The notes: generated by a model from the sequence alone, not told the origin. A stretch of DNA of 64,000 bases from Planctomycetia bacterium (GCA_021414115.1 JAIOPD010000030.1:1-64000); one strand, 5' to 3'. Numbered from the stretch's first letter, positions 6,413 to 62,494 are shown. Made by a program: numbers and translations.

Positions 6413-8233
6413 ATGGACCGCCGACACCGCGTTCTGACCATGCTGCAACATCACCGTCGAGGGACGGCCTCGCGAGCGTTCGCGCTCGCTGTCACGGTCG
6501 CGCTCGCCTCCGCCTCGGCGTCCGCTCAGGACGTGATCACCACGCTCGTCACCAAGGCGAACGCGTCTGGCACGGCAACGCTGAGCACGTTCGCCTACGA
6601 CCCAACGGGGCCCAATGGCGGCACGATCTACGCCGCAGGGTTTGGCTCCGGAGCAGAACTCCGACGCATCGAGAACCTCAGCGGCACGCAGACCGTCACC
6701 CAGCTCGTGGCGCAAAGCGAATGGACGTTGTTTCTTCGGAACAACGATCGCAATGCGACCGGTGGAAATCCGACCCCACACGGACTCCTCCTCAATCCCG
6801 TCGCCGTCGGCGGCCATGCCCCCTTCACGCTTGCGGTCATCTCCGACGGAGGCGGAGTTGTGAAGGTTTCAGGCAGCACGCGCAACGACCTGACGCAACG
6901 CCTCTACAGCTACAACGTGGCCAGCGGCACGGGACCGTTTACGTCGCTGGTCACCCAGGCCCAGCTCGCCTTTGCCAGCGGCCTGGCAAACCCCGTGACG
7001 ACCGGCAGCAATGCCAACTTCGGTCGGCAGTTCGCCTATGCGGGCGACGGGCAGTCCGTCTACATCATCGACACGAGTGTCGGCTACGGCGGTCTCTATC
7101 GGGCCAACATCGCGACGGGCACGGTGAGCCGCCTGTTCGCCGACTCCCAGATCAATACGGAGGTCGCCGTCCTCTCGTCTGGGGGAACCGACACGATCTT
7201 CTTTCAGGGCAGCCCGGCCACGGGCAACACGGGGGGCATCGACAAGTTCACCTCCAGCGGCACGGCCTCGGGCCGGAGCATCCATGTCGCCGCAGCAGCG
7301 ATCGCCGATTTCATGGAAACCGTGCCGTCCGGGATCGACATCACCTCGATGGCCGCCGGCCCAGGGGGCGAACTCTATTTCAACAACACCTCGAGCACTT
7401 CTCCGGATCGTCGCGGCATCTTCAAGGTGGATTCAGAGGGACGGCTCGCCAAGGTCGTGAGCCGCACGGAGCGGGGCACGACCCTCGGCCTCGGGAGCCC
7501 CAACTCGAACACCACCCGGATGCAGCCACGGACCGTGGAGCATCCCAATGGGTTTGATGTGACGCAGATTATGTATGTCGAGTCTGGAACTGCGAGCCTG
7601 ATCGCCGGAGCCTACGATTTCAAAGTCGGCGACTTCGATCGCGACGACGATGTCGACATGAACGATCTGACGCTGCTGAGGGCCGCCGTCGGTGTTCGCG
7701 GCGGACCTGCCGTGGGCCCCGGCAGCTACAAGTACGACCTCAACGGCAACAACGTCGTCGACTGGAAGGACGTCAAGATCCTGCAGACGTTCCTGCCCGG
7801 CCTTCGCAACGGCGATGCGAACATGGACCTCGCGGTCGACCTCCTCGACCTCAACATTATCCGCGACAACTACTCCACCACGGCATCAGGCACCGGGGGC
7901 AAGACATGGGCCACCGGCGACTTCGCGAGCATGGATCCCCTGGCGACGACCTACGCCGCCAATGCCAGCGACGCGAACATGGTCAACCTCGTCGACCTGC
8001 AGGTGTTCGCTACCACCTGGCTCAGCGTGCTGCGTAGACCGACGCTGACGTTCGCCGATCTCGACGCGAACGGCTACACCGGCCTGTTTCGACAGGACGT
8101 GATCACGGTCTTCTCGGTGCCCGAGCCCTCGGCCGTCGCCCTCTCGGTCGCCGGCCTCACGGCAGCACTGGCGTGGAGACATCGGCGGCAGCGAGAGAGC
8201 CGCTTTCCGCTTACCAAGCAGGAACGCACCTGA
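6413..8233 (+). CDS. PEP-CTERM protein with dockerin-type repeats
   Basis: Signal peptide; dockerin-like GDFDRDDDVDMNDLTLLRAAV / GDANMDLAVDLLDLNIIRDNY; C-terminal VPEPSAVALSVAGLTAALAWRHRRQR. Confidence 0.85.
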   Translation: MDRRHRVLTMLQHHRRGTASRAFALAVTVALASASASAQDVITTLVTKANASGTATLSTFAYDPTGPNGGTIYAAGFGSGAELRRIENLSGTQTVTQLVAQSEWTLFLRNNDRNATGGNPTPHGLLLNPVAVGGHAPFTLAVISDGGGVVKVSGSTRNDLTQRLYSYNVASGTGPFTSLVTQAQLAFASGLANPVTTGSNANFGRQFAYAGDGQSVYIIDTSVGYGGLYRANIATGTVSRLFADSQINTEVAVLSSGGTDTIFFQGSPATGNTGGIDKFTSSGTASGRSIHVAAAAIADFMETVPSGIDITSMAAGPGGELYFNNTSSTSPDRRGIFKVDSEGRLAKVVSRTERGTTLGLGSPNSNTTRMQPRTVEHPNGFDVTQIMYVESGTASLIAGAYDFKVGDFDRDDDVDMNDLTLLRAAVGVRGGPAVGPGSYKYDLNGNNVVDWKDVKILQTFLPGLRNGDANMDLAVDLLDLNIIRDNYSTTASGTGGKTWATGDFASMDPLATTYAANASDANMVNLVDLQVFATTWLSVLRRPTLTFADLDANGYTGLFRQDVITVFSVPEPSAVALSVAGLTAALAWRHRRQRESRFPLTKQERT

Positions 8234-12609: not shown

Positions 12610-14289
12610 TCAGGTGCGGATTGTCAGCTGCCACTCCGGCTCAGGCCGCGTGAGCGTGGCGAACCAGGCCACCGTTTCGTGCACGACTTCGAACCGGATC
12701 GCATAGTCGCCGGGCTCCGTCGGCGCGGTAAACGCGAGCTCGCAGGAGATCGTCGCCCCCGGTGCGAGGAAGGTCACGTTCTTCTCGCGGCGCAAAGGGA
12801 ACGCGAAATACGTCCGCGTCATGTCCCACTCCACGACGGATCCGTCGGGCAGGTGCACATGCCACGAGAGTCCGAGCAGGGCGGGACGAATCCAGAGGCA
12901 GGGCCAGGGATGCGACGAGGTGTTGGTCACCCGCGTGGAAATGGAGAGCCGCTCACCGGCGCGGAGCCTGCCCGGCAGCACGGACTCGATGTCGATCGTC
13001 GCCCGATAGGCCTCCGCCGGGAGCCAGCCTTCGACGTGTTCGATCAGCCCGGGCTGCATGTCGAGAATCCCCTCGCCCTGCGTGGGGCGCTCGAGGCAGG
13101 TCTCCGCCCAACGGGCCGCATCGACGACGTGAAACAGGCTCGGCACGAGTGGCAGGTGTCGCCAGCGGAGGTGGATGGCCTTGATGCCGCGGCGCTCCGT
13201 CTCGAGCACGCGAAAGGTGCCGAGCGACCCCGGGGCGTCGGCTGCCTCGGACCACCAGTCCCGGCGGGCGGCCATGTCTCCGGCCGTCTGGTGTGCGGGG
13301 GCGATGAGCCGGTTGACCGTCTCGCGCATCGCCTCGGGAATCCCGAATGTGCGGCCCTCGTCGACCGCCTCCCGCAGCGTGTCCCGCTCAAACGCGGGCG
13401 AACCGGCGATCAATGCGGCGAGCTGGTCGTGCACCGGCTCCAGACCGCGGACGTCGCCGGCGATCTGGAGCGCATGAAATACCTGTGTGGCGACGCCGCA
13501 GACCAGAGCCCGATCCCAGAGCTGTCCCCAGTCGAACGTCGGTGTCGCCACGAGCACGCGGGCGAGGTCGCAGACCCATTCCAGCCGCACGGCGCCCAGT
13601 TCCCGGACCGCGTTGACGCATCCGATCAGCACCTCGTCCTCAACGCAGGGGGTCAGGACCGTCATGCCCTGCCAGTCGATCGGGCGGGCCCGGGCGAAGA
13701 GACCCTCGTCGAATGCCCCCTGCGGAACCTCGATCAGCGGCCGCGAGTGCAGGTCGATCGCCTGGCCGGTCGCGTTGACGTAGTCGAAGGAGTGGTCGTT
13801 GAGCGCCCGCTGTGCCTCCGGATACCGATGACGCCAGCCCTGGTCCTGCAGGATCGCGTTGGCTCGCGGAAAATCCCCGGGCGAAACGAGGATGTCGACG
13901 TCCATCATCGGCCGCAGGGCCGAGCGGCCGTAATAGCGAAGGGCGAGCGACAGCCCCTTGAAGACGAGCACCTCGATGCCGGCTGCCTGGAGACCAGCCA
14001 CGGCCGTCCGCGCCGCGGCGATGACGAGGCTGTTGCGGACGTGGATGAACCGATAGACGCCCTTCATGCAGGCATAATGCGGCAGCAGCGGATCGCCCTG
14101 GGCGTGCCGGGCGAAGAGCGCGGGCACCAGCCGACTCGAGGCGGAGGCGATGCCGTCGATGTCGACGCATTCCAGCCACTGCCGGAAGGCCAGCGCCGCC
14201 GGCTTGTCGGCGAGGAGCAGCGCTTCGAGGGCGAGCCGTTCCGGGGTGGTGAACTGATAGAGCCGGTCGAGGTGCAGAAGGACGCTCAT
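12610..14289 (-). CDS. Uncharacterised nucleotidyltransferase (NTP_transf_5-like) with C-terminal beta-sandwich-like extension
   Basis: VLVFKGLSLALRYYGRSALRPMMDVDILV NTase motif; C-terminal ~120 aa LRAGERLSISTRVTNTSSHPW...PGATISCELAFTAPTEPGDYAIRFEVVHETVAWFA. Confidence 0.75.
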   Translation of the reverse strand: MSVLLHLDRLYQFTTPERLALEALLLADKPAALAFRQWLECVDIDGIASASSRLVPALFARHAQGDPLLPHYACMKGVYRFIHVRNSLVIAAARTAVAGLQAAGIEVLVFKGLSLALRYYGRSALRPMMDVDILVSPGDFPRANAILQDQGWRHRYPEAQRALNDHSFDYVNATGQAIDLHSRPLIEVPQGAFDEGLFARARPIDWQGMTVLTPCVEDEVLIGCVNAVRELGAVRLEWVCDLARVLVATPTFDWGQLWDRALVCGVATQVFHALQIAGDVRGLEPVHDQLAALIAGSPAFERDTLREAVDEGRTFGIPEAMRETVNRLIAPAHQTAGDMAARRDWWSEAADAPGSLGTFRVLETERRGIKAIHLRWRHLPLVPSLFHVVDAARWAETCLERPTQGEGILDMQPGLIEHVEGWLPAEAYRATIDIESVLPGRLRAGERLSISTRVTNTSSHPWPCLWIRPALLGLSWHVHLPDGSVVEWDMTRTYFAFPLRREKNVTFLAPGATISCELAFTAPTEPGDYAIRFEVVHETVAWFATLTRPEPEWQLTIRT

Positions 14290-15692
14290 GGGATCGGCTC
14301 TCCAGTGATTCGCCATGCGGGCAGCCCCGCCGCGACCGCGACGTCGAAGTCGGCCCGCGCCGTTTCGTCATCGCCCGCATGGCGGGCGATGAGTCCTGAC
14401 CAGAACCTCAGCAGCGGATCGTCGGGAAATGCGTTGCGGTGGTGGATCACGCCCCCTTCGCCCCGGGCGAGCACTGCACTCGCCGAGGCGATCGTGGCGT
14501 CGGCATCGCGGACCGATGCCGGTGAATGGAAGGGTGTACCTGCCATGCTCGCCTCGAAGCATTCCGCCTGGTCGCCGAGAGTGGTGACGAATCGGCCCGC
14601 GGCCGAAAGCCCCCGGCCCGGGAGCGGCTCGCGGCATCGTCGAGGCTGCCCGGCCAAGGCTTCGAAAAGAGCCCTCGAGCGGAGGGCATTCTGCGCGGGA
14701 TCGAAGTGGGCCCGGGCATGCGCCCGCGCGGCCGTGGCGAGTCGCTGACGCAGCGCCGCGTCGGTGGCGAGTCTTTCGATCGCCCGCGGGTAGTCGGTCT
14801 CGGAATCGCAGACGAGCCCCGTCCGCTCGTGCGCGACAAGTTCCGAAGCCCCGTTGCCCGCGAGCACCACGGGCGGGATGCCGGCCCACATCGCCTCCTG
14901 CAGCGTCTTCTCGCTGGAAGCATAGGTTTCGGCCGCGAGGGGGTAGCCGAAGATGTCGAGCTCGGCGAACGCCTCCCGGAGGTCTTCGGTGTGACCATGG
15001 AAGCGGACGCGGCTTCCCGCGCCGAGTGCCTCGAACCGACGCATCAGCTCGGCCGCCCAGGTCCCGTCGCCGAAGATATCGAAACGCAGTTGCGGCACGG
15101 CGACGGCGGCGGAGAGTTCGGCGAACCGCGGATGCATCTTCGTCGGCTCGACGAGGCCGAGGTAGCCGACGCGAATCCCTCGGTGTGGTCGCGGCACCAG
15201 TCCGTCGAGCCGTGTCATGTCGGCCAGCATCGGGATCGTCGCCACGGTCCTGCCGGCGGCCCGCGCCGCCCGAACGGCGGGAGTCTGCTCGCTGGCGGCG
15301 ACGAGGATCGTCATCGCGTCGGCGAACAGCCCGAGCGGGGCCGTCAGAACCTGGGGTGGTTTCAGGCCCGAGACTGCCGCATTCACGATCAGCCGCATCG
15401 CAGGCAGATCCTCGCGGAGCAGGTCGCTCAGCAGGGGATGATTCCAGAAGCAGATCTCGACGACATCGGCGGCCTCGATCGCGGCGGCGATGTCGGCCCG
15501 GGAGCGGCGCGGCAGCACCTGGATGCCGAGTTTCCGGGCCCGCACGACGAGCGCCGCCGAGAGCGGAGGCTCCAGCACGAGGAGCCGGTGCTCGGTGACG
15601 TGCCCCGACTGCCGCCATGCCGCAGCGAGCGCGAGCAGGTGCCGCTCGGGTCCGCCCCCGATGAAGCGGGGCATGATGTGGAGGATTCTCAT
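14286..15692 (-). CDS. Glycosyltransferase, GT4/GT-B-like
   Basis: MRILHIMPRFIGGGPERHLLALAAAWRQSGH...; later VRFHGHTEDLREAFAELDIFGYPLAAETYASSEKTLQEAMWAGIPPVVLAGNGASELV. Confidence 0.85.
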   Translation of the reverse strand: MRILHIMPRFIGGGPERHLLALAAAWRQSGHVTEHRLLVLEPPLSAALVVRARKLGIQVLPRRSRADIAAAIEAADVVEICFWNHPLLSDLLREDLPAMRLIVNAAVSGLKPPQVLTAPLGLFADAMTILVAASEQTPAVRAARAAGRTVATIPMLADMTRLDGLVPRPHRGIRVGYLGLVEPTKMHPRFAELSAAVAVPQLRFDIFGDGTWAAELMRRFEALGAGSRVRFHGHTEDLREAFAELDIFGYPLAAETYASSEKTLQEAMWAGIPPVVLAGNGASELVAHERTGLVCDSETDYPRAIERLATDAALRQRLATAARAHARAHFDPAQNALRSRALFEALAGQPRRCREPLPGRGLSAAGRFVTTLGDQAECFEASMAGTPFHSPASVRDADATIASASAVLARGEGGVIHHRNAFPDDPLLRFWSGLIARHAGDDETARADFDVAVAAGLPAWRITGEPIP

Positions 15693-16384
15693 TCCGGCGT
15701 GCCTCCCCGACGACCAGTGAGGAACCGCCGCGCGACGGTGAGCAGCTCCCGCCGGTAGGCGGCCACGTCGGTCGACAGGCTCGTATCACGCGCTCCCTTG
15801 CGAAGCACGACGGCATCGATGACGAGCAGAGGGGCCGCTGACGCATGCAGCCGGACGAACCATTCGCTGTCGCTCCCGATCCGGAGCGTCTCGTCGAACG
15901 GCCCCACCGCGGTGAACACGCCCCGTCTCGCGAGCAGGGCCCCGGGAGTGAACCCCGGCCGAGGGCGGCCGATCAGGTCTTGCTGTGCGGGAGTCGGGGC
16001 CACTCCGTCGAGCGACTCGAGAACCAGCTGACCGATCACGGCCTGTACGGCCGGATGGGCCGCGAGCGCTTCGAGTCGGGTGGCGAGCGAGCCGACGGTC
16101 CAGCGATCGTCGGCATCGCAGAAGGCGATCAGCGGCGCGGTCGTGGAGCGGATCGCCTCGTTGCGGGCGGCGGCCAGGCCGCGGCCTGTCTGGTGAACGA
16201 CCCTCACGCCCGGCCGTCGGGCCAGGTCAACGCTGCCGTCGGTTGAGCCGCCGTCGATGACGAGCACGTCCAGCGGACCGCGTCCCGGTGGGAGTTCCTG
16301 CGCGAGCACGCTCTCGAGCGCGGCGGCGAGCGTGGTGGCGGCGTTTCTGACGGCGACGATCACGCAGAGTTCCGGCGCGGTCAT
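15689..16384 (-). CDS. Glycosyltransferase family 2
   Basis: CVIVAVRNAATTLAAALESVLAQELPPGRGPLDVLVIDGGSTDGSVDLARR...GLAAARNEAIRSTTAPLIAFCDADDRW. Confidence 0.92.
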   Translation of the reverse strand: MTAPELCVIVAVRNAATTLAAALESVLAQELPPGRGPLDVLVIDGGSTDGSVDLARRPGVRVVHQTGRGLAAARNEAIRSTTAPLIAFCDADDRWTVGSLATRLEALAAHPAVQAVIGQLVLESLDGVAPTPAQQDLIGRPRPGFTPGALLARRGVFTAVGPFDETLRIGSDSEWFVRLHASAAPLLVIDAVVLRKGARDTSLSTDVAAYRRELLTVARRFLTGRRGGTPE

Positions 16385-17481
16385 GAGGCCACCGCTGCAG
16401 GCAGGGCGTCGCGAAGCGCGGCGACGAAGCCGTCGAGACGGGCGGCTGGCAGACCGGCCGCCGCGAGGTGTTCGAGGAGCGCGAGTGACTCCGCGGGCAG
16501 CTGAAAGGGGAGGAGATGATGCCGCAGGCGGCCATCGAGCGGCAACGGGGTGCCGCGGGCATGCCGTCGGGCCAGCCGCACGGCCATCTGTGGGTTGGCG
16601 CACCGGGCCAAGAGTTCGACGAGCACCCAGGCCCGGTCGAAGGCGGGATCTGCATTCTCTCGTTCGGTCGTCGCCAGACCAGCCGGCTCCGCACGGGCAT
16701 TGCCAACTGGCACCGCTGCCGTGAAGTCATCCTCGAACGCCGTGCGGGTCGAGTCGGCCCCCATGCCGCGGTTCTGGACGAGGTTCACCGGCGACACGAT
16801 GGCGGACTCGCCACGGAGGCCCATCTGCACCGACCAGATGAGATCCCAGGCGGAGAGCCGATCCTGACGCCAGGCTTCGAGGTAGCACGAGAGGTGGTTG
16901 GCGAGCAGGGCTTCGGAAACCGTGCGACCGATCTCGTCGCGGGCGGTCGAAGGGTCACCGTCGAGGTCGGTCGCGGCCGTTCGCCGCCACGCGTTCGCCC
17001 AGGTGGCCCACCCCCAGACACTCGCTCGTTGCACGCGGAGCATGTCCTGCGTGGGATCGCCCCAGACACCGAGCGGGTTGTGACCCGAGACCATGGCGAT
17101 CGTCTCGTCATGTTCGTGACGATCGAGCATTCGCTCGGCCCACGGAAAGAAACCGGGCGCCGGCAGCACGTCGTCTTCCAGGATGATCGCCCGATCGACC
17201 CGGCTGAACACCCAGTCGAGACCGGACGTCATCCGGCGGTCGCAGCCGAGATTGATCGCCGCTTCGTCCCGCTCGACGCGACAGGGCCAGTCGATGGCGT
17301 CAAGCACGCCCCGAGCGAGCCGGCAGGCCTCCTCGTCGCCAGGATGGCCGCTGCGCGGGCCGTCGGCCACGACCAACACGTGCGGCGGCCTGACCTGCCG
17401 CAGGACTGTCAGCAGTTCGCGGATCCTGTCGGGGCGGTTGAAGAGGACCACGGCGACGGGCGTGCGGAGTGGCAGCGTCAT
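16381..17481 (-). CDS. Glycosyltransferase (GNT-I/GT-A-like)
   Basis: TPVAVVLFNRPDRIRELLTVLRQVRPPHVLVVADGPR...AIILEDDVLPAPGFFPWAERML...GWATWANAW. Confidence 0.85.
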   Translation of the reverse strand: MTLPLRTPVAVVLFNRPDRIRELLTVLRQVRPPHVLVVADGPRSGHPGDEEACRLARGVLDAIDWPCRVERDEAAINLGCDRRMTSGLDWVFSRVDRAIILEDDVLPAPGFFPWAERMLDRHEHDETIAMVSGHNPLGVWGDPTQDMLRVQRASVWGWATWANAWRRTAATDLDGDPSTARDEIGRTVSEALLANHLSCYLEAWRQDRLSAWDLIWSVQMGLRGESAIVSPVNLVQNRGMGADSTRTAFEDDFTAAVPVGNARAEPAGLATTERENADPAFDRAWVLVELLARCANPQMAVRLARRHARGTPLPLDGRLRHHLLPFQLPAESLALLEHLAAAGLPAARLDGFVAALRDALPAAVAS

Positions 17482-19583
17482 GGAGCATCGTCTCCGGCCG
17501 GGCTCGGAGCGACCGGCTCCAACGCCTCGATGAAGGCGTCGAGCCGCCGTGAACGAGAGCCGATGTCGCGGAGCTGATGCAGCGCAGCCGCAGCGTCGCT
17601 CGATGGGAAGAAGGGGGCGAGGTGGTGCCGCACCCTGCCGTCGGTGACCAAGGCCGGACTGCGGGCGAGTTTGCGCATCATCCGTGGATTGCGGCAGGTG
17701 TCCATCAGGGCGATGAACAGCGACCAGCGGTCGAGCCGGTGATCGATCGTGGTCTCCATCCGGTACGTGGGTCTCGGCGGCGCCGCCACGGGCTGCACCC
17801 CCCGCAGGCTGTCGGCAAACCAGGGATGGGTGGCCTCCGCATCAAAGCCGCCGTGGGCCACCAGATTGACCGACGACACGACCGACAATCCTCCGAGCAG
17901 CGCACGCTGCAACTCCCAGCGGGTGTCCCAGCCGTGCTCGATACCACGCGACGACAGCCCCCGCAGCCACTCGAAATGATCGGCTACGTACGGATCGACG
18001 AGGCCGGCGGCGCGGAGTCTGGGAATGGCGTCATCAGGGCCCGGCAACGGAAGAGCCCGTGCCGCCTGCCACGCCCGTCGCCAGGTGCCGCAGCCCAGGT
18101 TGCTCCCGCGGTGGACGAGCAGATGGTCAGTGTCGGGGTCGCGCCAGCGGCCCAGGTCGTTGCGGCCGGAGACGCAATGGATCGACGGCTCGTGGCGGTA
18201 GCGATCGAGCATCTCCCCGCACCAGCCGAGGAATCCCGGATGGACGACGAGGTCGTCCTCCAGCACGATCGCCTGCTCGACGTGCTCGAATGCCCAGTCG
18301 ATGCCCGACGTGACCCGATCGGTGCAGCCGAGGTTGGTTTCGGACTCGTTCCGCAGGATCTCGCACCGCCACGGCACCCGCTCGAGCAAACGCCGCACTT
18401 CCCGGCAGCGTTCGGCATCGTCTGGGTGATCCCGCCGTGGCCCGTCGGCCACCACGAGCAGCGTGGCCGGTCGGGACTGCTCGAGAATGGCGAGCAACCG
18501 ACGCAGTTTCTCGGGCCGGTTGAACACCGCGAGCATGACGGGCGTCTGCACGCCCGTCGGCCGGCTGCCGGCTGCACCGGTACCGACCCCGGCAGGACGC
18601 GGTCGTGCCGGCGGCGCGCGCCGTGGAGCGACGTTGCCCTGGCAGATTCCGCGCATCGCATCGACGACCCGTTCGAAATCCCAGCCGACCTCCAGGCTGA
18701 GCATCGGCACATCACGAGCCAGTCGGGAAAGCCCCGTCAGCCATGACTGCGACGTGCCGGCACAGCCCAACACGGGTGTGGACGCGTGCGCGAGGAGTTT
18801 CCATGCGGCGGTCGGAGAGACAGGCTGCGGAACGTAGGGGGCGGACTCCTCGGGACGCACGGCGACGATCGCCACCAGCCGAGCCGACCGCTCGAAGGAG
18901 ACGGCCGACGCTGCGGCCACCACGGTCTTGCCCTTGGGAGTCGTGCCCAGCACGGGCCAGTCTCCGACGTCCAGCCGAGCGCGGCTGTCAGCGTTGAGCT
19001 TGGCTGTGGCATAGAGGCCGTGAATCGTGTGCCGACCGGCGGCCGAGGCGTCGGGAGCGACGACGCAGAGGTCGTCGCCGAGAAACGAGAATCCCGCGAG
19101 GCTGCAGGCCAACGAGGTGGTCGTCTTGCCGCGGCCACCTGCACCGACGAGCAGCACGCCGCGGTCGCCGAGCGCCACGCCGGCGGCGTGCATGAGAAAC
19201 TGCCCGCCTGCCGCGATCCAGCTTCCGATAGCGACATGCGCGGGCTGCGCGAGCAGGTCTCCGGCGGCGAGCGCCGCCGGAGACGCCAGGAGTTCGAGCC
19301 GCGGCCGGTCGCCCGGATACCAGCCCTCGACGAGCGAGGGGCTTCGGCTCACCAGCGCGAACGAACCGTCAGGTCCGCGGTTCGCTCCCGTCGCAAACGC
19401 GTTGAACGGAGGATCTGCCGCTGGATCCGCCGAGCTCCGGACGACGAGCGTCGCGTCGGCAGGTCCAGGTGCGGGTGTCTCGACGCGAGCCAGGGCCGGA
19501 CGGATCGCCGCGGCACCGGCGTCACCGCTGATCGCCAGCCGTCTGCCCGCCACCGCGACAGTGAAATCGGTCTTGGGCTGCAC
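17478..19583 (-). CDS. HPr-kinase-like P-loop ATPase fused to GNT-I-like glycosyltransferase
   Basis: N-half: HAAGVALGDRGVLLVGAGGRGKTTTSLACSLAGFSFLGDDLCVV (Walker A, HPrK-like DD); C-half paralogous to the downstream gene: TPVMLAVFNRPEKLRRLLAILEQSRPATLLVVADGPRRDHPDDAERC...AIVLEDDLVVHPGFLGW. Confidence 0.85.
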   Translation of the reverse strand: MQPKTDFTVAVAGRRLAISGDAGAAAIRPALARVETPAPGPADATLVVRSSADPAADPPFNAFATGANRGPDGSFALVSRSPSLVEGWYPGDRPRLELLASPAALAAGDLLAQPAHVAIGSWIAAGGQFLMHAAGVALGDRGVLLVGAGGRGKTTTSLACSLAGFSFLGDDLCVVAPDASAAGRHTIHGLYATAKLNADSRARLDVGDWPVLGTTPKGKTVVAAASAVSFERSARLVAIVAVRPEESAPYVPQPVSPTAAWKLLAHASTPVLGCAGTSQSWLTGLSRLARDVPMLSLEVGWDFERVVDAMRGICQGNVAPRRAPPARPRPAGVGTGAAGSRPTGVQTPVMLAVFNRPEKLRRLLAILEQSRPATLLVVADGPRRDHPDDAERCREVRRLLERVPWRCEILRNESETNLGCTDRVTSGIDWAFEHVEQAIVLEDDLVVHPGFLGWCGEMLDRYRHEPSIHCVSGRNDLGRWRDPDTDHLLVHRGSNLGCGTWRRAWQAARALPLPGPDDAIPRLRAAGLVDPYVADHFEWLRGLSSRGIEHGWDTRWELQRALLGGLSVVSSVNLVAHGGFDAEATHPWFADSLRGVQPVAAPPRPTYRMETTIDHRLDRWSLFIALMDTCRNPRMMRKLARSPALVTDGRVRHHLAPFFPSSDAAAALHQLRDIGSRSRRLDAFIEALEPVAPSPAGDDAP

Positions 19584-19594
19584 GTCGTGATCGT

Positions 19595-20038
19595 TCAGCC
19601 GTCGGCTGCGGGAACATTCCCCTGCCGATGCGGCCAGCCTTTCGTCGGATCGACGTCGTGGATCGGATCCATGGCGATGATGTCGGCGATCTCGTCATAC
19701 CTCTCCACGGCGGGCGGGACGAACGCGTCAGGCAGGGCCGCAGGTTCCCCGGCCGCTGGTTCGGCTGACGATTGCGGCTGCAGCATGCCATTGGCGACGA
19801 GCTCGCCGAGAAATCGACGGGTCGCGTCCTCCGCCTCGGCGCCGAACCGAGCCGCCACCTCGGCCGACAGGCCGTCGATCGAGTGGCCGGCGATCATGCG
19901 GTGCCAGAGCCACGGGCCCAGGCCCGTCAACAGGAAGAGATGCCCGCAGGTGGCATCGATGATGACGGTCTCACCGTCGATGGTGTCGTGTGGAAAGCGC
20001 GTTGTGTCGGCAACAAGCAGGTCATTCACGCTCGTCAC
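19595..20038 (-). CDS. PqqD-like (RRE) protein with C-terminal extension
   Basis: HDTIDGETVIIDATCGHLFLLTGLGPWLWHRMIAGHSIDGLSAEVAARFGAEAEDATRRFLGELVANGML matches the PqqD/RRE pattern; GTG start 20038 or 20029 uncertain (track extends to 20125). Confidence 0.8.
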   Translation of the reverse strand: MTSVNDLLVADTTRFPHDTIDGETVIIDATCGHLFLLTGLGPWLWHRMIAGHSIDGLSAEVAARFGAEAEDATRRFLGELVANGMLQPQSSAEPAAGEPAALPDAFVPPAVERYDEIADIIAMDPIHDVDPTKGWPHRQGNVPAADG

Positions 20039-61569: not shown

Positions 61570-62112
61570 TCAGCGGCCCGGCACACGACCCGCGAGGGCG
61601 CCGGTGACGTCTTCTGGAAGCGCTGCCTCGAGGTGAGGATGGGCCTCCACGAGCCGGGCGATGTCGCCGAGATCCTTGATCGCCTTGCTGGGCCTCCGCT
61701 CCGGCGTCCGCCACTCCTTGATTTTGCCGGCAAGCGTATCCCCAAGGGTCGCCACCCGCAGCAGAATCCCATGCACATCCGCGGCAACCGCACGGGAGGC
61801 GAAGTCCTTGTAAAAGTCTTCCGTGCTCAACTGCAGGCTGACTTGTGAGTGCCCCCGGAAGTTCACCGACCAGGAGTGGCGTTCCGCCGTGAAGCCCGCC
61901 CGTTCCAGTGCGGCGACGGCCTGCTCGATCTCGTCGACCGCCACGACGAAATCGACGTCGCGAGTGACCATCGGCTCGGCGGCCCAGTGGTTTACGGCGA
62001 TGCCGCCGATGGCGCACCAGTGGAGTTCGGCACGCTCCAACGCATCGACCATTCGCATGACGTCATCAGCGCCGCCTGCTGTCTGCCAATCGTAGAACTG
62101 CCGTCCCGTCAT
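61570..62112 (-). CDS. AbiEii/DUF6036-like nucleotidyltransferase
   Basis: WCAIGGIAVNHWAAEPMVTRDVDFVVAV (GGxAxxxxG..R.T.D.D-like NTase core). Confidence 0.75.
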   Translation of the reverse strand: MTGRQFYDWQTAGGADDVMRMVDALERAELHWCAIGGIAVNHWAAEPMVTRDVDFVVAVDEIEQAVAALERAGFTAERHSWSVNFRGHSQVSLQLSTEDFYKDFASRAVAADVHGILLRVATLGDTLAGKIKEWRTPERRPSKAIKDLGDIARLVEAHPHLEAALPEDVTGALAGRVPGR

Positions 62113-62494
62113 GCGAATCAGTGTACACCCAAAGGGCCGTCTGCAGGACGGTCGCTTCGGCGCCGCCGGCGGCTGCCGCAAGGGCGGTGGTTTCATCGGG
62201 CTTGGCGGGAGTCACCGGGGCACGCGTCGAAAATGCCACGCACAACTGTGCAGCGGTGCCTGGTGTGCGAGGTGCCCGGTGACGGATCGGAGCTGGTCAT
62301 CAACCTCGGCCCACGTCCGCCGGGTGAAGCCAGATGAACGTCGGCGCCCGCGGTGGCTAGGCTTTCGAGGTCAAGGCCCGTCTTCGTTCGTATCATGGCT
62401 CGGGGCAGACCAATTGCGGCGGGCTCGAAAGGGGACGCTGCCCCCAGGATTCCGGTTTCTGTGGCCGGCGGTCAGCGGCAATGATGTCTTCAGG

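Follow-up and report, generated by a model that had tools for sequence, protein, structure and literature searches.

Where does a peptide-modifying operon keep its peptide when no precursor gene stands beside it? The question is raised by six minus-strand genes at 12610-20038 of a 64,000-nucleotide stretch from a Planctomycetia bacterium (GCA_021414115.1 JAIOPD010000030.1:1-64000; this whole stretch is called the window below). The operon encodes a PqqD-like protein that represents a recognition element (RRE) of the ribosomally synthesized and post-translationally modified peptide (RiPP) pathways, a kinase fused to a glycosyltransferase (GT), three further GTs, and an NTP_transf_5 nucleotidyltransferase. 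A preliminary description of the window suggested that the acceptor of these enzymes is encoded elsewhere. This need not hold: a leader-like segment and a near-invariant peptide are part of the PqqD protein itself, and no stand-alone precursor was found in the 116 loci listed. The conserved PqqD tail, which that description overlooked, is the most informative feature of the locus, and suggests that the pathway's "missing" peptide is encoded on the binding protein itself. The RRE, its leader-like segment and the near-invariant peptide travel with a kinase, GT2/GT4 glycosyltransferases and NTP_transf_5 over many phyla.

Sequence and predicted structure of the PqqD tail

The window PqqD scored 26.5 bits against Pfam PF05402 (cut-off 23.4). 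Past its RRE domain lies a tail of the form [FY]xxPx[LV]xx[YF]xDMxDLLLLDP[IV]H[DE]VDx(2-3)GWP. In its first half, residues are spaced as in RRE leader motifs established by experiment; the second half is nearly invariant and, in the structural model, exposed. The motif pattern matched once in the window and never in 100 shuffles. Leaders of linear polyphosphorylated peptides (LPPs) have the consensus YxxPxVLxHQxIxFETxxS, and lasso leaders the motif [Y/W]xxPx[L/V/I/F/A] (PMC13381572). The tail spacing, F/Y-x2-P-x-L-x2-Y-x2-M, agrees with both the YxxPxVLxHQxI part of the LPP consensus and the lasso motif.

A scan of GTDB species genomes (about 85,000 species) gave at least 116 loci; all counts, columns and taxa reported for these loci are among the matches listed. 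The motif was in frame in a PqqD-like protein in 116 of 116, normally 2-20 residues from the stop codon or else inside a fusion, and an RRE was recognized upstream of it in 113 by a model built from tail-less PqqDs only. The leader pattern, scored as [FYW]xxPx[LVIFMA]xx[HYF]xx[LIVM], stood at exactly -18 in 71 of the 116 tails, and the window's own tail fits its five positions (F, P, V, Y, I). The same pattern was absent elsewhere in the same frames (17,021 aa) and from 2,320 shuffles, and occurred 11 times in 510,445 aa of other frames. At the level of sequence, the leader-like spacing is not a product of chance. Because the search pattern selects for the core letters, their conservation is overestimated; the unselected columns before the core (-18 to -1) are also strongly conserved, with Y/F/H at -10 in all 116 tails, D/E at -8 in 113, and L/I/M at -4 in all 116.

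The model of the window PqqD (predicted local distance difference test, pLDDT, 86) has the RRE fold, a beta3-alpha3 winged helix. Its best solved matches were the TbiB1-leader complexes 5v1v/5v1u (prob 1.00, TM 0.78 by target), with TfuB1-leader and NisB-leader also found; the sequence profile matched TbiB1 at E 3e-18. Tail residues 111-115 were modelled as a strand in a confident block (pLDDT 95 and 87), and the DPIHDVD..GWP part was not placed (pLDDT 59-68). In the model of a natural PqqD-kinase fusion (L051), the tail strand formed again and the core was disordered (pLDDT 44, 36). By prediction, the leader-like segment docks on the RRE as a strand and the peptide after it stays exposed; the strand would lie in the leader groove, with the leader bound in cis.

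Distribution and gene content of the cassette

The tail is not a general feature of PqqD proteins. Among 28 other alignable PqqDs of the phylum none carries it; these proteins end right after the RRE. In 394 genomes of the class, a profile search returned matches that were either full length with the tail or ended at about position 100. The full-length matches, which were not chosen by pattern, carry DPIHEVETTGWP, DPIHEVAEAGWP and similar sequences, and in one of them (L218, genome G057) the tail is degenerate. When cassettes were found through the kinase instead of the motif, seven of eight carried the tail, one degenerate. Within the order, the DNA pattern DP[IV]H[DE][VI][DG]x(2-3)GWP occurred in 7 of 196 genomes, always at the end of a PqqD domain and adjoining a kinase wherever the contig continues; the reversed control gave no match. 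In a tree of the RRE only, with tails removed before alignment, the split between tail-bearing and tail-less proteins needed 3 changes, compared with 25 under shuffled labels. This tree is rough, with few alignment columns; it places the window within a set of six, supported at 99/95, whose members come from Planctomycetota, Acidobacteriota, Actinomycetota and Alphaproteobacteria.

By titles and taxonomy, the motif loci span at least a dozen phyla, many of the loci being metagenome bins with uncertain single phylum assignments. Pseudomonadota, Cyanobacteriota, Chloroflexota, Acidobacteriota, Actinomycetota, Bacteroidota, Bacillota, Verrucomicrobiota, Planctomycetota, Nitrospirota, Gemmatimonadota, Omnitrophota, Aminicenantes and others are represented. 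Profiles built in this analysis detected the kinase at 94, GT2 at 88 and NTP_transf_5 at 69 of the 116 loci; at the 53 loci whose downstream sequence covers 4 kb or more, the numbers were 47, 49 and 33, with all three at 32. Natural PqqD-HprK fusions occur at L044, L051, L166 and L225, and an HprK-GT2 fusion at L163. In the fusion proteins of L051, L044 and L225, a second, partial PqqD-like stretch lies between tail and kinase. ABC exporters were seen in a minority of relatives. A search of the order with the kinase-GT protein and NTP_transf_5 likewise found the same gene kinds together (L042, L043, L044, L045, L047, L050, L051).

The neighbourhood is kept far beyond close relatives. The preliminary description had recognized a B1/K/N-type set, named after lasso-peptide genes, that is accompanied by GTs and lacks the lasso cyclase and protease. 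This is borne out: the Transglut_core3 domain of the B2 leader protease has no match in the whole genome, and no Asn_synthase-like macrolactam cyclase is present on the window's contig (8 matches lie on other contigs, without PqqD or B2). The proposed replacement of macrocyclase and protease by GTs was not a one-off swap in a lasso cluster; PqqD-HprK-GT2-(GT2/GT4)-NTP5, the usual gene order, forms an independent cassette that recurs in many phyla.

The window subtype, with a GNT-I-like GT followed by GT2 and GT4, was also found in L175 (Planctomycetales), L118 (Acidimicrobiia) and L122 (Aestuariivirga), which belong to three phyla; L175 shares 60%, 59% and 51% identity with the window in GT4, GT2 and GTb, respectively. 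The kinase in the genome of L175 (G537) comes from another cassette, of the fused PqqD-HprK kind, which lies at a distance of 6 kb; a third one shows the plain gene order. The same genome contains two different tail-bearing PqqD cassettes that adjoin each other, with nucleotidyltransferase genes between them (L229, G537:C70:18000-36000). The nearest PqqD and kinase to those of the window are in an Acidobacteria metagenome-assembled genome (57% and 51%), and a congener (G012) carries a different, fused cassette type; therefore, gene transfer probably took place. In G012, near-identical tail-bearing PqqDs lie on different contigs (L044 and L060), one of them kinase-fused, which reflects either duplication or an assembly artefact. 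A cassette is also present on the mobilizable plasmid pCRI9333.04 of Crinalium epipsammum PCC 9333 (L242), comprising PqqD, with the tail FEKPMLEKFTDMEDLLLLDPIHEVDVEAGWPNAKTA, a nucleotidyltransferase, an HPr kinase, an FkbM methyltransferase and a GT.

A separate precursor was looked for in the nearest 4-8 kb of each locus. The 874 small open reading frames near the motif gene at the 116 loci included no family shared beyond near-identical strains, and none within 4 kb was a conserved small frame with a leader motif.

Operon layout and encoded enzymes

The six genes, the four 4-nt overlaps created by ATG starts at 17481, 16384, 15692 and 14289, and the 11 nt between the end of PqqD (stop codon 19595-19597) and the GTG start of the kinase at 19583 are exactly as the preliminary description gave them. 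For GT2 and NTP_transf_5, the chosen starts are shorter than the longest open frames; internal ATGs giving ATGA overlaps were accepted. The family calls of that description for PqqD, GT2, GT4 and NTP_transf_5 pass the respective cut-offs. The HPr kinase call falls below them, though PDB profile and fold agree with it.

Features of the operon and their positions in the window
Feature	Position	Strand	Basis
PqqD-like protein (RRE) with conserved C-terminal tail	19595..20038	-	Pfam PqqD; GTG start 20038, open frame from 20125
Leader-like segment FVPPAVERYDEI in PqqD tail	19688..19723	-	Predicted docking as strand; strand E111-115
Near-invariant exposed peptide DPIHDVDPTKGWP in PqqD tail	19631..19669	-	Motif pattern
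HprK/PEPCK-type kinase domain, residues 1-330 of 701-aa protein	18594..19583	-	Walker A, PDB profile match
GTa, GNT-I-like glycosyltransferase domain fused to kinase	17478..18593	-	Weak GNT-I match, 11.8 bits
GTb, GNT-I-like glycosyltransferase	16381..17481	-	Weak GNT-I match; POMGnT1 in PDB, E 0.011
GT2 glycosyltransferase	15689..16384	-	Glycos_transf_2, 82.6 bits
GT4 glycosyltransferase with C-terminal extension	14286..15692	-	Glycos_transf_1, 64.9 bits
NTP_transf_5 nucleotidyltransferase with C-terminal domain (~200 aa) of unknown family	12610..14289	-	PF14907, 141 bits

In single-sequence searches, the kinase domain stayed under all HprK cut-offs (27.9 and 26.6 of 200 bits; Pfam 13 bits). 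The P-loop GxxGxGK[ST] is present as GAGGRGKT and the catalytic Asp within GDD; G150, G152, K153 and D171 are invariant across 47 relatives. Among solved structures in the PDB, HPr kinases were matched by the family profile at E 2.2e-9, and the fold of a relative is that of HprK/PEPCK. With P-loop and catalytic Asp retained, the domain is an HprK relative below threshold, and its kinase function is predicted on this basis. No NCBIfam model names the window PqqD or kinase. Simple regulation of HPr and the phosphotransferase system was considered and rejected: an HPr gene is present on another contig, but the kinase is operonic with the RRE and GTs and far from true HprK.

GTa, the second half of the kinase protein, and GTb, a protein of 366 aa, are 40% identical and are paralogous GT-A-type enzymes, weakly related to GNT-I/POMGnT1 as their closest families. 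NTP_transf_5 has the active-site motif KG...R...DxD, with R135 invariant and G121 and D139 nearly invariant in 13 relatives. The NTP_transf_5-like proteins beside the kinase fusions of L044 (7898-8833) and L051 (7263-8249) lack the catalytic Asp residues of DxD and are possibly pseudo-enzymes. A small second NTP_transf_5-like frame was detected far from the operon, at 61573-62211 on the minus strand (local profile, E 5e-10).

The operon is flanked downstream by a convergent DTW-domain gene and upstream by genes for a DsbD-like membrane protein and a purine nucleoside phosphorylase; these are not cassette members. PEP-CTERM/exosortase systems are said to be found together with HPr-rel-A cassettes, and a secreted-looking protein at 6413-8233 has dockerin and PEP-CTERM matches slightly under cut-off.

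Possible roles of the tail and comparison with known systems

The operon may be a phospho-glycosylation cassette built round an RRE protein that carries its own peptide in cis; we favour this tentatively, at somewhat less than an even chance. As the peptide would be in cis on the RRE, a separate precursor gene would be unneeded. The exposed peptide would be presented to the neighbouring enzymes like a RiPP core peptide, the kinase would put on a phosphate, NTP_transf_5 may add a hexose to this phosphate as PsmN does in pseudomycoidin, and the GTs would lengthen the glycan; the acceptor would be the tail or some cargo brought by it. It is rather unlikely that the protein is an RRE-leader-core fusion RiPP whose near-universal core, DP[IV]H[DE]VDx(2-3)GWP, is phosphorylated and/or glycosylated, is retained as a carrier or released, and was spread through at least a dozen phyla by gene transfer.

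Several points weigh against modification of a peptide carried in cis. Peptide kinases of the HprK type known to date phosphorylate Ser, and the tail has no conserved Ser/Thr, so a simple phospho-Ser substrate is disfavoured; since 20 of the 116 tails have no S/T/Y at all from -9 to the end, a universal phospho-Ser acceptor on the tail was rejected. Docking of the motif on the kinase was not seen in the L051 fusion model (pLDDT 36-44), and a role of the peptide as a kinase tag is therefore disfavoured as well. The cassette has no protease to free a product, the motif occurs inside fusions, so that a C-terminal position is not required, and the GTs could serve an unrelated glycan.

Some of these observations suit a different role. 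The tail could be a docking or autoinhibitory element, a pseudo-leader, with the RRE as scaffold or switch and the true acceptor (peptide, protein or glycan) encoded elsewhere, either displacing the tail or being handled by the enzymes gathered on it. Near-invariance over many phyla suits a docking motif better than a natural-product core, a conserved phospho-acceptor is missing, and the motif is retained internally in PqqD-HprK fusions; however, the fusion model gives no docking on the kinase, and no second conserved peptide or protein acceptor was found in the nearest 4-8 kb of each cassette. Such a role is a real, if doubtful, possibility. A surface-glycan locus (exopolysaccharide or capsule), with PqqD and kinase in accessory roles and without any modified peptide, is improbable. 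The four GT modules of the window, the alginate export, GDP-mannose dehydratase-like and sulfotransferase genes beside some relatives, and the presence of the related HPr-rel-A cassette in the order would fit, but the cassette recurs with short GT2s, its neighbours include no recurrent family of polysaccharide polymerases or flippases, and the presence of a leader-like strand on an RRE is hard to account for if no peptide is involved. Least probable of all is a RiPP cluster of lasso or LPP type with a stand-alone precursor that escaped detection or lies elsewhere in the genome. The RRE/K/N toolkit is the same and the nearest folds are lasso RRE-leader complexes, but the genome has no lasso leader protease domain and only one PqqD, the 116 loci yielded no precursor within 4 kb, and the RRE bears its own leader mimic.

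RRE-based genome mining presupposes a separate precursor peptide. If the peptide in cis is real, a widespread RRE family that carries its own leader and near-invariant peptide would account for many RRE loci without a visible precursor, and a one-line sequence signature would find the tail-bearing loci. The HprK/NTP_transf_5 toolkit would also become testable outside lasso peptides in culturable hosts such as Crinalium epipsammum PCC 9333, Loktanella and Mesorhizobium; the first, a named cyanobacterial strain with the cassette on a plasmid, is a convenient experimental host. No paper among those searched mentions the motif, the nearest being PMC13381572, and the tail-bearing PqqD cassette is apparently undescribed.

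In lasso peptides of the paeninodin/pseudomycoidin type (B1, K, N), the K gene phosphorylates Ser and the N gene puts one or two hexoses on the phosphate (PMC8498205). The window shares with them the RRE fold, the HprK-homologue kinase and the hexose-to-phosphate NTP_transf_5 family; it differs in having GTs and no cyclase, B2 protease or precursor gene. A toolkit without a macrocyclase has a published relative in the LPPs of Bacillota, where the RRE/K/N set operates without a cyclase and LppN activity was not seen (PMC13381572). The lpp cluster of Paenibacillus alginolyticus described there likewise combines a discrete RRE with an HprK-like kinase and an NTP transferase, its leader has the YxxPxVLxHQxI spacing of the window PqqD tail, and LPP clusters are often embedded in polysaccharide loci, which we count as a further likeness. 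LPP clusters, unlike the window with its leader-like segment on the RRE, encode their precursor (LppA) separately, together with an exporter and a SipW-like peptidase; among the six window genes there is no SipW-like signal peptidase, LppA precursor or MsbA-like exporter. The phospho-Ser of LppA has no counterpart in the window, and the window cassette includes GT2/GT4 genes.

The PqqD-kinase-nucleotidyltransferase cassette is also shared with the HPr-rel-A system (TIGR04352/TIGR04353 and NTP_transf_5), which occurs in other genomes of the same order as a curated three-gene cassette at L046, L052 and L054 (TIGR04352 283-333 bits). However, the window kinase reaches 26.6 of the 200-bit TIGR04352 cut-off, and its PqqD has no TIGR04353 match at E 0.1; HPr-rel-A PqqDs have no tail, and the examples L046 and L052 have no GT2 in the cassette. 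The two are related but distinct cassettes that coexist in the order. Fused borosin precursors set a precedent, in that a substrate peptide is joined to the protein that matures it; the partner there is a methyltransferase and not an RRE, and there is no homology. By the defining features of the lasso, LPP and HPr-rel-A systems, the window cassette belongs to none of them; it uses the same toolkit, in the form of an RRE with a DP[IV]H[DE]VDx(2-3)GWP tail beside an HprK-like kinase, GT2 and NTP_transf_5.

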